NCBI GenBank assembly: GCA_001803565.1
Contig: MHDQ01000155.1
Location: 1-8,115, forward strand
Reading direction: 5' to 3'
DNA: 8,115 nucleotides
Source: Nitrospinae bacterium RIFCSPLOWO2_12_FULL_45_22
Lineage (GTDB): Bacteria; 2-12-FULL-45-22
Shown here piece by piece: positions 392 to 7,748 of the stretch. The notes beneath the pieces are model-generated. The model saw only the letters and a program-made list of their open reading frames with translations. It did not search any database and was not told the DNA's origin. Every line of letters starts with the position of its first letter. The first letter of the stretch is position 1. The position numbers were made by a program, and so were the translations under genes.

Positions 392-453
392 ATTAGGTAA
401 TTGGGTTATCGGTTTACCTAATAACCCAATTACCCAATCACGTAGTTACCTAA
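392..453. repeat. Octamer tandem array with nested palindromes between convergent genes
   Basis: From 414 to 453 the plus strand reads as five consecutive 8-base units of consensus TTACCYAA: TTACCTAA, TAACCCAA, TTACCCAA, the degenerate TCACGTAG, then TTACCTAA again. The left part carries the reverse complement, so 396-409 (GGTAATTGGGTTAT) pairs perfectly with 421-434 across an 11-base loop. ATTAGGTAA at 392-400 can alternatively pair with TTACCTAAT at 414-422. The stop codon of the receiver-LpxC gene (446-448 on the minus strand) lies inside the last unit. The palindrome sits between two convergent 3' ends and could act as a bidirectional terminator, but neither side has a T-run, so a canonical Rho-independent terminator is not supported. 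Confidence 0.75.
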
Positions 454-2410
454 CTGCCAGGTGACGGATTTTTTTCAGGAGGGCGATATTTTCTGTGTGG
501 CCAGTCATACGGGCGGTTACCAGCCCCTGAACCCTCTTGCCCAGTAGGTAGAGATCACCCATGATATCCAGGACTTTATGACGGGGATATTCGTCTTCAA
601 ATCGCAATGTAGTATTAATGACCCTTTCTTCGTCTAGCAATATGACATTGCTCAACCTTCCTCCCTTAGTCAGACCTTTCTCTTCTAAATATCCCACATC
701 TTTAAGGAAGACAAAAGTCCGGGCTGGGGCAATCTGATTCTTGAATCCTTCTCCCCACTTATGAGAATAGAAGAACTCTTGCTGGCCAATAGGCTCAGGG
801 CAATCCATTATATACCGGATAGCCAGGCCAGGATAAGGTTCTATAGTCAAATATTCCCTTTGCGAGGGGTCACCTACAGCATAAAAGTCATCAATAATTA
901 TCCCTTGTTCAGGGCCCTCCTGCTCCTCTATACCACCTTCTTCTATCAGTTGACAGAACTCCCTGGCCGACCCATCCATAATCGGTACCTCATCTCCCAC
1001 CTTAATAAGGACATTACTGATTTCGTAAGCATGTAAAACGGCCATAAGGTGCTCAATGGTACCGATGGAGATAGGCCCTTTCTTCAAGACGACAGCATTG
1101 TAAGTAGAATCTACCAGGTCGAGACGTGCAGGTATGTTTTGGCCTGAAGGGATATGAGAAAAGATGATCCCACTGTTAGGTGGTGCCGGTAGCAAGATCA
1201 GCCCTCCCTTTATCCCGGAATGGAGTCCCTGACCACACAGCACCACACTTTGCTTAAGGGTCTTTTGCCGGGGGTATTTCCTGGCTTTAGCAAGTGGGTA
1301 TCGTTGGCTATCCCGGCTAGTAGCTATCTCTCTCTGGATAAAAACTGGTATGTCCTGAACCCTTATAGTCTCTTCCGGGGTAGAGGAAATTATCCTCAAT
1401 ATGATATTTTTTAATTCTTTAACGTTTCCTGGCCAATGATACCCTTCTAAGATAGCTAAGGCATCTTTAGTTATCTGCTTGGGTTTGACCCCTAAATAAT
1501 GGGAGAATTGAGAGATAAAATACTGGACTAGAAAGGGAATATCTTGCTTCCTTTCTCGCAGCGGCAGAGTCTTGATAACTACCTGGTCCAGGTATTGCCA
1601 GAGGTCGTAGTTAAATCCGGTTATTTCAACCTCTTTCTTTAAGCTCTTGGTGGAAGAGGCGATTATTTTAGGAGGGTTCTCCCTATCTCTCATGATTTTT
1701 AAAAGGGTCAGGAGCTCCTGCTGGCTCTCTTGGTCCAGGGCAGCGATCTGATCGAAAAAGATAGTTCCGGCTGGTGTTGGGCAGAGGGCCATTAGGGTTT
1801 CTTTAGTTAAACCCGGGCAATTGAGACGCAGGAAAGAACTATCTTCTTTGCCGCTGCTATGGTGAATAGCCCGGCCAATGAGCTCCTTACCCGTCCCTTC
1901 CTCGCCTATAATGAGTATGAGAAAATGTTCCTGGGCGAGAATAGGGATCATCTTTTTCAGCTCAAAAATAGCTGGGCTCTGACCCACAATCTCCTCGTTG
2001 GCGGAAGCGAGCCGGCTGGCTTCTCTCCCTTTACGTAAGGTCTTTTGCTGGGATAATGCCTGGTTAACAGTCTGGACAATATTTTCCAGCGATAACGGCT
2101 TTTCTATAAAGTCGAAAGCGCCTAGCTTCGTGGCCTTAACCGCAGTATCTATATTGCCATGCCCGGACATCATGATTATCTCCAGGTCGGGGCAGATAGC
2201 CCGGGCTAACTGCAATAATTCTATACCATCTATCCCTGGCAGCCAGACATCTAAGATAGCCAGATCGGGCGCTTCTTTCATTATTATATCCAGGGCCTGT
2301 GGGCCATTTTGGGCCTGGGATATTTGGAAGCCCTCATCTGTCAAGATACCCCCTAACGAGTTCAGGATACTCTTTTCATCATCCACAATAAGTATATGGC
2401 CTTTGTTCAA
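446..2410 (-). CDS. lpxC: Response-regulator receiver / degenerate NtrC-like AAA+ / LpxC fusion (UDP-3-O-acyl-GlcNAc deacetylase)
   Basis: A 654-residue protein starting at TTG (2408-2410). Residues 1-120 are a CheY-like receiver with acidic D10/D11, phospho-acceptor D54, S82 and K104 in FIEKP. Residues about 141-355 resemble the sigma54-activator AAA+ domain: Walker A GEEGTGKE at 169-176, Walker B-like GTIFFDQI at 215-222, LPLRER near 282 and WPGNVKEL at 326-333. This domain lacks the GAFTGA region, is shortened before sensor I, has N267 and Y273 at the arginine-finger positions and Q221 for the usual Walker B glutamate. Residues about 384-654 are a complete LpxC domain, the zinc deacetylase of the committed step of lipid A synthesis. 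By E. coli correspondence the zinc ligands are H454, H611 and D615, with catalytic-site E453, K612, D619 and H638; the 27-residue H611-H638 spacing matches E. coli. No Fis-type HTH remains. No plausible start codon lies just upstream of the LpxC part, so it appears to be made only as a fusion. The symbol refers to the LpxC domain. Confidence 0.93.
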   Translation of the reverse strand: MNKGHILIVDDEKSILNSLGGILTDEGFQISQAQNGPQALDIIMKEAPDLAILDVWLPGIDGIELLQLARAICPDLEIIMMSGHGNIDTAVKATKLGAFDFIEKPLSLENIVQTVNQALSQQKTLRKGREASRLASANEEIVGQSPAIFELKKMIPILAQEHFLILIIGEEGTGKELIGRAIHHSSGKEDSSFLRLNCPGLTKETLMALCPTPAGTIFFDQIAALDQESQQELLTLLKIMRDRENPPKIIASSTKSLKKEVEITGFNYDLWQYLDQVVIKTLPLRERKQDIPFLVQYFISQFSHYLGVKPKQITKDALAILEGYHWPGNVKELKNIILRIISSTPEETIRVQDIPVFIQREIATSRDSQRYPLAKARKYPRQKTLKQSVVLCGQGLHSGIKGGLILLPAPPNSGIIFSHIPSGQNIPARLDLVDSTYNAVVLKKGPISIGTIEHLMAVLHAYEISNVLIKVGDEVPIMDGSAREFCQLIEEGGIEEQEGPEQGIIIDDFYAVGDPSQREYLTIEPYPGLAIRYIMDCPEPIGQQEFFYSHKWGEGFKNQIAPARTFVFLKDVGYLEEKGLTKGGRLSNVILLDEERVINTTLRFEDEYPRHKVLDIMGDLYLLGKRVQGLVTARMTGHTENIALLKKIRHLAVR

Positions 2411-2415
2411 ATTAG

Positions 2416-2423
2416 CCCCTCCT
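2416..2423 (-). promoter_or_regulatory. Strong Shine-Dalgarno site that fixes a TTG start
   Basis: On the minus strand AGGAGGGG ends five bases before the TTG codon at 2408-2410; counted from the AGGAG core the spacing is about eight bases. No ATG or GTG at a similarly good distance competes, and the protein sequence from this TTG gives a normal receiver-domain N-terminus (KGHILIVDDE). This supports TTG as the start of the receiver-AAA+-LpxC gene. Confidence 0.8.
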
Positions 2424-2435
2424 TTATCAAATTTA

Positions 2436-2451: not shown

Positions 2452-2524
2452 ATGTGCCCTTGAGCCAATCGGAAAGTCTGTTCGTGATGAGAGTCAGACG
2501 CTCGGTGTCAATCTTTCCTATCAA
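2450..2524 (-). CDS. Possible 24-residue peptide overlapping the MoxR stop codon
   Basis: A TTG at 2522-2524 overlaps the TGA stop of the MoxR-type gene, and an open frame of 24 codons runs to TAA at 2450-2452. The peptide is charged and amphipathic, beginning MIGKIDTERLTL and ending LSDWLKGT. There is no Shine-Dalgarno site of its own; translation could only come by coupling with the upstream gene. The composition looks more coding-like than the surrounding spacer. It could be a real small peptide, or the broken 5' end of a downstream partner gene such as the VWA-domain gene that usually follows ATPases of this family, but I cannot recognise homology. It may also be chance. Confidence 0.18.
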   Translation of the reverse strand: MIGKIDTERLTLITNRLSDWLKGT

Positions 2525-3378
2525 TAATACTTGCGGCGGCGGCCAAAGGTACCGGTCAATTTCCCATCCAGATAATCCAGGTCCTCTTCCTTTTTCAGGA
2601 GCACACCCATAAAGGGTAGTTCTTTTTCTACTATAGCCGGTGAGATACCACCGGCTATCAGGGCTTGGATCCAATCTATCAGCTCACTGGTAGAGGGCTT
2701 CTTACGGAATTCATCCAATTCCCTCAACCAATAGAACTTATTCAGGCATTGCTGCAAGAGGTCCTGCTGGATATCAGGGTGATGTACCCGCACGATTCGC
2801 TCCATCAACTCTGGCCCAGGAAACTCTATGTAATGGAAGACGCAACGCCGTAGAAAGGCATCGGGCAGCTCTTTCTCGGAATTGCTGGTAATGATTACAA
2901 TGGGGCGGTGCCGGGCAATGATGGTCTTATCCAGCTCAGGTATATAGAAGGACATCTCATCCAGCTCGTTCAGCAGGTCATTAGGAAACTCTAGATCGGC
3001 CTTATCAATCTCATCTAATAGCAGTACCGGCTGCGCTTCGAAAGTAAAGGCTAGGCCCAGCTTGCCCAGTTTTATATATTGGCTGATGTCGGAGATATCT
3101 TTATCACCAAAGCGGCTATCATGGAGGCGCTGGACAGTATCGTAAAGATAGAGCCCTTCCTGGGCCTTGGTGGTTGACTTAATATTCCAGACAATCAGGG
3201 GTTTACTCAGCCCTAAGGCGATATTATGGGCCAGCAAAGTCTTGCCTGTGCCCGGCTCGCCCTTGACCAGCAAGGGCCTGGCTAAAGCAATAGCGGCATT
3301 AACCACATTGCGTAATGCCTCTGAGACGATATATTTATGTGTCCCTTGAAACCGATCAAAACCATTATCCCTGCTCAT
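2521..3378 (-). CDS. MoxR/CoxD-type AAA+ ATPase
   Basis: A 285-residue AAA+ ATPase counted from ATG at 3376-3378. Walker A GEPGTGKT is at residues 40-47, Walker B LLLDEIDKA at about 119-127, sensor I ITSN near 163-166, and the arginine pair LRRC near 176-179. The segment reading GLYLYDTVQRLHDSRFGD and the later KPSTSELIDWIQAL are features I associate with the MoxR-like ATPases that accompany CoxE-type VWA proteins. Such ATPases act as cytoplasmic chaperones that remodel or insert metal cofactors into client enzymes, usually with the VWA partner. No VWA gene follows here. Two GTG codons at 3382-3387 are also in frame, but they lie within the AAGGTGG ribosome-binding sequence of the ATG, so ATG is preferred. 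It lies 88 bases after the acyl-CoA dehydrogenase stop and 110 bases before the LpxC fusion. The client is unknown. Confidence 0.88.
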   Translation of the reverse strand: MSRDNGFDRFQGTHKYIVSEALRNVVNAAIALARPLLVKGEPGTGKTLLAHNIALGLSKPLIVWNIKSTTKAQEGLYLYDTVQRLHDSRFGDKDISDISQYIKLGKLGLAFTFEAQPVLLLDEIDKADLEFPNDLLNELDEMSFYIPELDKTIIARHRPIVIITSNSEKELPDAFLRRCVFHYIEFPGPELMERIVRVHHPDIQQDLLQQCLNKFYWLRELDEFRKKPSTSELIDWIQALIAGGISPAIVEKELPFMGVLLKKEEDLDYLDGKLTGTFGRRRKYY

Positions 3379-3388
3379 ATCCACCACC

Positions 3389-5818: not shown

Positions 5819-5922
5819 GCGTTGAGGGGTAAGGAGTAAGGGATAATCCCTTTTAGATTGCTTCGCTCCCCCTTCGCTACGCTCAGGGCTAAGGGCTCAC
5901 CGCAATGACACTTTGAATGTCA
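5807..5922. repeat. Repeat tract joining the PHP gene and the M23 gene
   Basis: 5807-5842 contains units related to GTRAGGA (GTGAGGA, GTGAGC, GTTGAGG, GTAAGGA, GTAAGGG), the same family as the array at 4904-4945. The PHP stop codon is inside it. AAGGG/CCCTT (5838-5842, 5848-5852) makes a 5-bp hairpin followed by a T4 run, at best a weak terminator. Beyond it lies CTTCGCT twice (5861 and 5872), then an ACGCTCAGGGCT stretch and CGCAATGACA, which look like dispersed repeat vocabulary. TGACA/TGTCA at 5906-5910 and 5918-5922 is a small inverted repeat. Confidence 0.55.
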
Positions 5923-6014
5923 ACTTGTTTGAGACGTTCACTATAACTGCTCCCGGCTTACAGTTAACTGCCCAGTTTTTTGTGTTCTTTACGGTTCATA
6001 ATTCCAGATTATCA

Positions 6015-7748
6015 GTGGATAAGCTTGCCAGGTCACGGTATGGCACTACTATTTTTGTTTTATTAATTATCTGGTGCTTGCTATCAGGTCAGACAAAGGC
6101 CCCTGAATATCTCTTCCCTTTAGCTATGGAACCTGCTATTAGTGGGACTTTTGGCGAATACCGGGGCTATAGGTTTCATGCTGGGATAGACCTCAGGACT
6201 AATGGGGTGATGGGCTATCCAGTGAAGGCCACAGGAGATGGGGAGGTCTTTCAGGTAAAGCACTTTGTTGGTGCTGATGGCAAGGTGCTGTATTTGCGCC
6301 ATAGAACCGGCCAGATAACGGTATATGCCCACCTTTTTGAGTTCATGCCTGCATTAGAAAAACTGGTTCAGGAAGAGAGACGGCGGACAAATAGGTATGG
6401 GTTCAGGCTCTGGCCAGAAAAACCGCTCAGGGTTAATAAAGGTACTATTATCGGATATTCAGGTAAATCGGGTACCAGCTCCCCACATCTCCATTTCGAG
6501 ATTCGCACACCAGATAATCAGCCCCTTAATCCCTTTAAAAAAGGCCTCCTGATAGCAGATGTTATCCCGCCGGTCTTGAAGTCTATTACCCTGGAACCGG
6601 CAGACCCATACTCGGCCGTGGAAGGCGGTTCTGCCAGCCGTAGTTTTAATTTTGTCCAGCGGGGAGGAGGATACGTTTTAGCGAAAAGACCGCGGGTAGC
6701 CGGGCAGGTTCAGATCACGCTAGGGGCCTGTGATGAGACCACCCCGGGCAGTTGCAATGGGGTCTATCGCATAGAGGTTTATCGGGGATCGGGCCTTCCC
6801 GGGCTTAGTCTCTCTTTTGATAAATTCTCTTTTCTAGATAATTTTAAGGGCCTCTCTGTTTACCAGACAGGCTCCAATTTTTTTCAGGGACGATACCTGT
6901 ACCGGCTCGTTCCAGCTCCTTCAGCCTGTAATCCTTTCCTGCGTAACCCACCCCACCCTTTGTGGCTAAGGGGGATAGGGGCCCGAGGACCTTTATTAAT
7001 AAAGGTGTATGATGCTGCCGATAATTTTGCTATCGGGAAAGTCCTGCTTGAAGAAGACCCTGGCGCTTATGATTTTTCTGACCAGATATTGAAATACCCA
7101 TTCTTCATAAAAGCGGGGGAGAAAAAGGCCCTATCAATAGACAAGGGGTCTTTTAAGCTTGAGTTTAGCCCGGAAAGTCTATGCAGCCCTGATTATCTGG
7201 CTATCCAGGAGAAGAGGGAAGGGGAGGGGACAGTTTATTCGGCAAGGTTCAAGGATAATTCTTCTGCCCAGCGAATAAAGGTAGCTATGGAACTGACCAA
7301 CCGGATGCGCTTAGACAAGGTAGGGATATATGCCCGGGCCTCAGCCGAACAGGGCTGGACATATCTCCCTACAGTTGTGGATAGGAAGAGCCATTATGCC
7401 TGCGCCTATTCTACCCTCCCAGGCGATTTTACCCTAAAAGAAGACGATAGCAAACCCGTGATTGGCCCAGAGATATACTATGGCAAAGCCCGCAACCTGA
7501 TCAATCTTAAACGGTATGAGATCTCTTGCTCATTGTATGACTATGGGAGCGGTTTAGACCCAGACTCCATCAGCTTTCGGGTGGATAATGAGCCGATGTT
7601 CTGGGAATTGAATTATCCTGAACAACGTCTCTATTGCTACTTGCGGGAGCCCCTGCCCGCTGGCAGTCATCAGCTATACCTTAAAGCCGCTGATCGGATA
7701 GGCAATATCAGTGAGTACCAGGGTACTTTCCTTGCCCCAGACCCATAA
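6015..7748 (+). CDS. Secreted M23 family metallopeptidase with Ig-like C-terminal domains
   Basis: A 577-residue protein if GTG at 6015-6017 is the start. That start gives a clean signal peptide: basic DKLARSRYG, hydrophobic TTIFVLLIIWCLLSG, and a possible cleavage after QTKA. TTG at 5913 would add 34 residues that begin inside repeat DNA and spoil the signal; neither start has a clear ribosome-binding site. A TATAAC at 5942-5947 could be a -10 box. The LytM/M23 zinc endopeptidase domain (about residues 38-176) has all its signatures: HAGID with H55 and D59, YAHL with H106, and SPHLHFE with H158 and H160. The opening SGTFGEYRGYRFHAGID is typical of a subfamily of large periplasmic M23 enzymes that cut peptidoglycan cross-bridges. 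About 400 residues follow, probably beta-rich: one Ig-like region around 185-346 ending GPLLIKVYDAADNFA, and another around 502-571 with GSGLDPDSISFRVDNE and AGSHQLYLKAADRIGN. The substrate is not known. Confidence 0.88.
   Translation: MDKLARSRYGTTIFVLLIIWCLLSGQTKAPEYLFPLAMEPAISGTFGEYRGYRFHAGIDLRTNGVMGYPVKATGDGEVFQVKHFVGADGKVLYLRHRTGQITVYAHLFEFMPALEKLVQEERRRTNRYGFRLWPEKPLRVNKGTIIGYSGKSGTSSPHLHFEIRTPDNQPLNPFKKGLLIADVIPPVLKSITLEPADPYSAVEGGSASRSFNFVQRGGGYVLAKRPRVAGQVQITLGACDETTPGSCNGVYRIEVYRGSGLPGLSLSFDKFSFLDNFKGLSVYQTGSNFFQGRYLYRLVPAPSACNPFLRNPPHPLWLRGIGARGPLLIKVYDAADNFAIGKVLLEEDPGAYDFSDQILKYPFFIKAGEKKALSIDKGSFKLEFSPESLCSPDYLAIQEKREGEGTVYSARFKDNSSAQRIKVAMELTNRMRLDKVGIYARASAEQGWTYLPTVVDRKSHYACAYSTLPGDFTLKEDDSKPVIGPEIYYGKARNLINLKRYEISCSLYDYGSGLDPDSISFRVDNEPMFWELNYPEQRLYCYLREPLPAGSHQLYLKAADRIGNISEYQGTFLAPDP
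6940..6981 (+). repeat. Palindromic repeat-like insert within the M23 reading frame
   Basis: Inside the M23 gene, CCCTTTG (6956-6962) pairs with CTAAGGG (6966-6972), except for one T-T mismatch, around TGG. It is flanked by C-rich CCCACCCC and G-rich GGGGATAGGGG. The composition is unlike the neighbouring codons and resembles the C-rich/G-rich palindromes found between genes of many uncultured bacteria. The encoded residues (roughly NPPHPLWLRGIGARG) interrupt an otherwise beta-rich domain just before GPLLIKVYDAAD. The frame is preserved. Confidence 0.35.

Follow-up and report, generated by a model that had tools for sequence, protein, structure and literature searches.

Background

LpxC catalyses the committed step of lipid A synthesis, which makes it a control point of outer-membrane synthesis, and it is a major antibiotic target. 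The control of LpxC known to us operates by proteolysis or by transcription. Transcriptional and proteolytic control are both discussed in a review on the regulation of lipid A from 2025, E. coli LpxC being controlled by proteolysis and the lpxC of Caulobacter crescentus being transcriptionally inhibited by NtrYX; searching the text of the review gave no mention of fusion (PMC12444477). NtrYX governs the cell envelope as well as lpxC: in Rhodobacter sphaeroides lacking NtrYX the lpxC transcript rises 8.8-fold and LPS about two-fold, and an NtrX site was not found at lpxC (PMC7240162). The response regulator DVU2934 of Desulfovibrio vulgaris has lpxC as its single reported target (PMC3333781); it binds DNA and acts on the lpxC gene, and is not fused to the enzyme.

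Fusions of LpxC and response regulators with enzymatic outputs have each been described. In the LpxC-FabZ bifunctional protein (NF009667, PRK13188) the partner of LpxC is a second enzyme. Regulators of the CheB, GGDEF/EAL/HD-GYP and PP2C types join a receiver straight to a catalytic domain, and the enzymatic outputs that we know of are signalling or modification enzymes. Here we describe a protein in which a receiver of the NtrX type is joined to LpxC, so that the output, unlike that of the CheB-like regulators, is an enzyme that commits a biosynthetic pathway.

A receiver, a degenerate AAA+ domain and LpxC in one reading frame

The window analysed is the whole of contig MHDQ01000155.1 (8,115 nt). 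The fusion gene is complete and lies on its minus strand (446-2410), encoding 654 amino acids from a TTG start at 2408-2410 to a stop at 446-448. Reading the sequence further upstream reveals a strong ribosome-binding site (AAGGAGG, 2418-2424, minus strand), with a spacing of 7 nt to the TTG. The preliminary description of this DNA had reported a single uninterrupted frame; it is real and unbroken, with the correction that it runs on the minus strand from 2410 to 446. Residues 6-115 (2066-2395) form a receiver (Pfam Response_reg, 2.8e-30) in which D10, D11, S82, K104 and the phospho-acceptor D54 (codon 2249-2251) are all present as previously listed; the domain has the fold of a two-component receiver together with its acidic pair, phospho-Asp, S/T and Lys residues. 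Residues 141-281 (1568-1990) match the Pfam Sigma54 AAA+ family at about 1e-17 and constitute a degenerate NtrX/NtrC-type AAA+ domain, followed by an AAA+ lid at residues 285-366 (1313-1558; AAA_lid_14, PF25601, 1.4e-22). A short linker of 15 residues (367-381; 1268-1312), delimited by alignment with relatives and with low model confidence at 370-377, leads into the LpxC catalytic domain at residues 382-648 (467-1267), which matches PF03331 over nearly its full length (9e-75). All of these segments are encoded on the minus strand.

The LpxC domain scores 252 bits against PF03331 (cut-off 27) and 235 bits against TIGR00325 (curated cut-off 187). Its zinc and catalytic residues E453, H454, H611, D615 and H638 are all present, which bears out the earlier claim of a complete LpxC; they correspond to E78, H79, H238, D242 and H265 in E. 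coli LpxC. The domain shares its whole catalytic core, these residues and its fold with the canonical enzymes of E. coli, P. aeruginosa and A. aeolicus, and is set apart from them by the N-terminal receiver with its AAA+ domain. Its fold matches LpxC crystal structures. In an AlphaFold model of the protein the individual domains are confident, and the overall pTM of 0.51 does not allow a receiver-LpxC interface or domain arrangement to be claimed. Pfam and NCBIfam profiles detected no FabZ domain in the fusion.

Distribution, copy number and phylogeny

About 90 sequences carry the receiver-LpxC join. They belong to Nitrospinota, Schekmanbacteria, Tectomicrobia/Entotheonella and unnamed lineages, a wide taxonomic spread, which the preliminary description had named as a point to check. 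When the LpxC domains of five fusions were used as queries against named genomes, 74 loci were recovered at ≥51 % identity, followed by a gap down to ordinary LpxC at ≤43 %. All 74 belong to Nitrospinota, Schekmanbacteria, Tectomicrobia, Entotheonella or bins labelled 'Nitrospirae'. A receiver is in frame with LpxC in 70 of them, and in the other four (L057, L061, L094 and L101) the contig breaks off ahead of the receiver. Plasmids searched by tblastn gave only partial NtrX/NtrC-like matches.

We also screened a domain-wide sample of 386 genomes with a profile of the fusion. Among the 326 LpxC-positive genomes 24 stand out as a discrete clade with scores of at least 330 bits, the next reaching at most 246, and a receiver is present in all 24. 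The fusion occurs in 4/4 genomes of the phylum containing Schekmanbacteria and in only 1/60 sampled genomes of another large phylum, that of G160, so that it is not fixed everywhere. In Nitrospinota, LpxC was found in 65 of 77 genomes (30 of the 31 of high quality), once per genome, and every intact copy lies in a long fused frame of 460-797 aa, the shorter frames being located at contig edges. Single-contig Nitrospinota genomes likewise have one LpxC each. All fusions form one clade of the LpxC tree, separate from canonical LpxC (SH-aLRT 100); the row outL029 of this tree is the same gene as L139 and is itself a fusion, not a stand-alone LpxC.

An assembly or gene-calling artefact might have fused two genes at about 1260-1340, the preliminary description having raised the possibility of an assembly error there; in favour of this, the contig is short and its genome fragmented. 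Dozens of independent assemblies share the join, complete chromosomes included, and the closest relatives of the window protein are 50-57 % identical over the full length. We consider the chance of an artefact here negligible, and for the family the breadth of homologues refutes it.

The possibility of a second, conventional lpxC had likewise been raised. A PF03331 search of the window genome (3.67 Mb) finds one LpxC, the fused copy, with the limit that at 85 % completeness a second lpxC could be missing from the assembly. LpxB is also encoded, and its presence together with that of the fused LpxC makes a lipid A pathway likely in this genome. In the collection the phylum of the window consists of two genomes, and LpxC was not found in the other (68 % complete).

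The receiver and the enzyme are conserved while the AAA+ domain decays

Conservation is distributed unevenly along the protein. The phospho-acceptor D54 is present in 85/85 receiver-bearing members, S/T82 in 85/85 and K104 in 84/85, and the LpxC catalytic residues are identical in 89/89 members. Across the 73 full-length members mean pairwise identity is 0.68 for both the receiver and LpxC, and falls to 0.35 for the AAA+ domain and 0.34 for the lid. Pfam recognises Response_reg and LpxC in 49/49 members searched and Sigma54_activat in 43/49. The AAA+ domain is missing altogether from 12 of the 85 members while the receiver is never lost; 11 of these 12 have a short receiver-LpxC linker and the remaining one, L047, retains a Fis-like remnant. 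Each AAA+-less form may be a loss, or some may represent a simpler ancestral state, the tree being compatible with either.

By profile, sequence and fold the nearest regulator family is NtrX. Like the fusion, the NtrX of Brucella (5m7n/5m7o/5m7p) has a receiver, an AAA+ domain and a lid in the same order. The fusion differs in its C-terminal LpxC, in the loss of the Walker-B glutamate and the arginine fingers, and in a DNA-binding domain that is degenerate or deleted. The GAFTGA sigma-54 contact loop is absent from the window protein and from all 88 aligned relatives. It is also absent from Brucella NtrX, so that it distinguishes the fusion from NtrC and not from NtrX, and its loss is perhaps inherited, whereas the other AAA+ losses are specific to the fusion. 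Walker B reads FFDQ in the window protein, lacking the glutamate, which is kept in 2/79 members, and window residues 266-274 (FNYDLWQYL), where arginine fingers would be sought, hold no arginine. Walker A is mostly retained across members (GEEGTGKE in the window protein). Many relatives have a degenerate Fis-like helix-turn-helix at the position of the linker, which in the window protein is replaced by the 15-residue linker.

The preliminary description had spoken of an NtrC-like AAA+ domain, which holds for the presence of an NtrX/NtrC-type domain and does not hold for a working one of the NtrC type. The NtrC-family paralogues of the window genome, used as positive controls, have most or all activator motifs intact, and a functional NtrC-type activator was rejected on motif loss. 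The AAA+ region thus looks like a scaffold in decay and not like a sigma-54 activator.

These patterns also bear on whether the fusion might still be an NtrX-like transcription regulator, with LpxC as a substrate sensor or moonlighting part in the manner of trigger enzymes. The AAA+ fold with Walker A in most relatives and the Fis-like remnant in many are compatible with such a role, as is the DNA binding of alphaproteobacterial NtrX, which proceeds despite the lack of GAFTGA. We nevertheless think it very unlikely, given that the window protein has no helix-turn-helix and has lost the Walker-B glutamate and arginine fingers, that the AAA+ domain evolves at about twice the rate of the other parts of the protein and is dispensed with in the members noted above, mostly leaving a short linker, and that other NtrC-family proteins in the same genome keep their motifs. 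Decay of the AAA+ domain and its absence from some lineages might also be read as signs of a neutral accident, with a constitutive LpxC that carries its upstream domains as passengers. A passenger receiver would hardly be conserved as well as the enzyme, with every switch residue kept and the domain retained in 24/24 genomes of the wide sample, and we give this reading very little credence indeed.

An NtrY-like kinase as candidate partner

Part of the clade has an NtrY-like kinase gene immediately upstream of the fusion; among 65 testable loci we identified it in 14. The end of the kinase gene there lies anywhere from 142 bp ahead of the fusion start to 4 bp past it, and in L040 and L041 the two genes overlap by 4 bp (ATGA). 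The kinases have NtrY_N, HAMP, PAS, HisKA and HATPase domains. Kinase and fusion are unlinked in most Nitrospinaceae. An NtrY-like kinase gene situated away from the fusion, with no regulator gene as its neighbour, occurs in four Nitrospinota and on contig C296 of the window genome, where the observation is limited by the end of the contig 518 bp past the kinase. The kinase of the window genome has a HEIKNP motif with the histidine at 538. A search at 1e-40 of two genomes with the minimal receiver-LpxC form recovered no NtrY-like kinase. Where Nitrospinota loci were tested, a DUF4390-type gene precedes the kinase and lies next to it; PlrP, a DUF4390 protein, acts on genetic evidence as the third component in NtrYX systems (PMC13001219).

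Proposed control of LpxC by phosphorylation

The preliminary description had proposed that the output domain of the regulator is LpxC itself. The absence of a second lpxC, the wide distribution of the fusion and the strict conservation of the phospho-switch support this proposal, and it is strengthened by kinase adjacency in some loci and by the members that consist solely of receiver and LpxC, such as the Entotheonella form L096. From sequence comparison we consider it probable that an NtrX regulator captured LpxC and that phosphorylation now tunes the enzyme, which is the sole copy in nearly all sampled Nitrospinota and in several other lineages. The protein would then be an LpxC with an NtrX-type receiver and a remnant AAA+ domain, in which an NtrY-like kinase acting through Asp54 plausibly sets lipid A output post-translationally, an account that we judge likely to be right.

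We infer the phosphotransfer partner and the effect on LpxC as follows. An NtrY-like membrane histidine kinase would phosphorylate or dephosphorylate Asp54, joined in some lineages by a periplasmic DUF4390 (PlrP-type) protein. The switch of the receiver would make the LpxC attached to it more or less active, or more or less stable, through changes in oligomerisation or in how the catalytic domain is contacted. Lipid A output would thus be set post-translationally, in place of the NtrYX transcriptional control of lpxC in Rhodobacter and Caulobacter. The link between NtrX and lpxC would have turned covalent in the fusion clade, where the receiver, unlike NtrX, would act on LpxC itself and not on lpxC transcription.

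The receiver might instead govern the location or turnover of LpxC and leave catalysis alone, by docking to the membrane kinase or by exposing the enzyme to, or hiding it from, a protease such as FtsH or Lon. Proteolytic control of E. coli LpxC (PMC12444477), the end of the fusion shortly beyond the LpxC domain and the persistence of the receiver even in AAA+-less members all fit such a role. No specific degron or docking motif is seen in the sequence, and regulation of this kind would itself remain two-component control of LpxC; we regard it as rather unlikely.

A phospho-switch that tunes the enzyme would mean that a sensor kinase could steer outer-membrane building directly, bypassing gene expression. 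The switch is seemingly built into LpxC in environmentally important bacteria, among them Nitrospina-type nitrite oxidisers and Entotheonella symbionts. The fusion would exemplify a transcription factor that shed its DNA-acting parts and retained the phospho-switch for an enzyme, and it offers a simple protein for studying receiver control of attached enzymes. It also suggests that envelope homeostasis may be an old role of NtrYX. Given the regulators with enzymatic outputs and the LpxC-FabZ fusions already known, receiver-LpxC is a new variant; to our knowledge, it is unusual for a regulator to have a committed biosynthetic enzyme as its output and for this form to be fixed as the only copy in most of a phylum. 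We found no paper describing the receiver-LpxC fusion in a search that most subscription papers fell outside, and InterPro or UniProt may list the architecture unremarked.

Gene neighbourhoods

Within the window, the next gene upstream of the fusion, likewise on the minus strand (2521-3387), encodes a MoxR-like AAA+ ATPase, and the window contains no VWA partner gene. On the plus strand a secreted-looking protein of 611 aa (5913-7748) has an M23 peptidase domain at its N-terminus, and its long C-terminal region matches no family.

In four Nitrospinota loci (L158, L159, L160 and L161) the order is mutS, in most cases a nucleotide-sugar epimerase, the DUF4390-type gene and the NtrY-like kinase. 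This order is conserved and no response regulator gene follows the kinase, so that the layout resembles the third-component arrangement of PlrP-PlrS, here outside Proteobacteria. On C296 of the window genome (L157:1930-7284) the kinase begins where mutS ends, and a small gene encoding a LapA (lipopolysaccharide assembly protein A) domain lies just before mutS. LapA and LapB take part in the control of E. coli LpxC. Many loci, L076, L082 and L100 among them, share a conserved series of genes after the fusion, namely purN, a lolA-like gene, an rseP-type site-2 protease gene and nusA, and in Nitrospinaceae the fusion is preceded by trmB.
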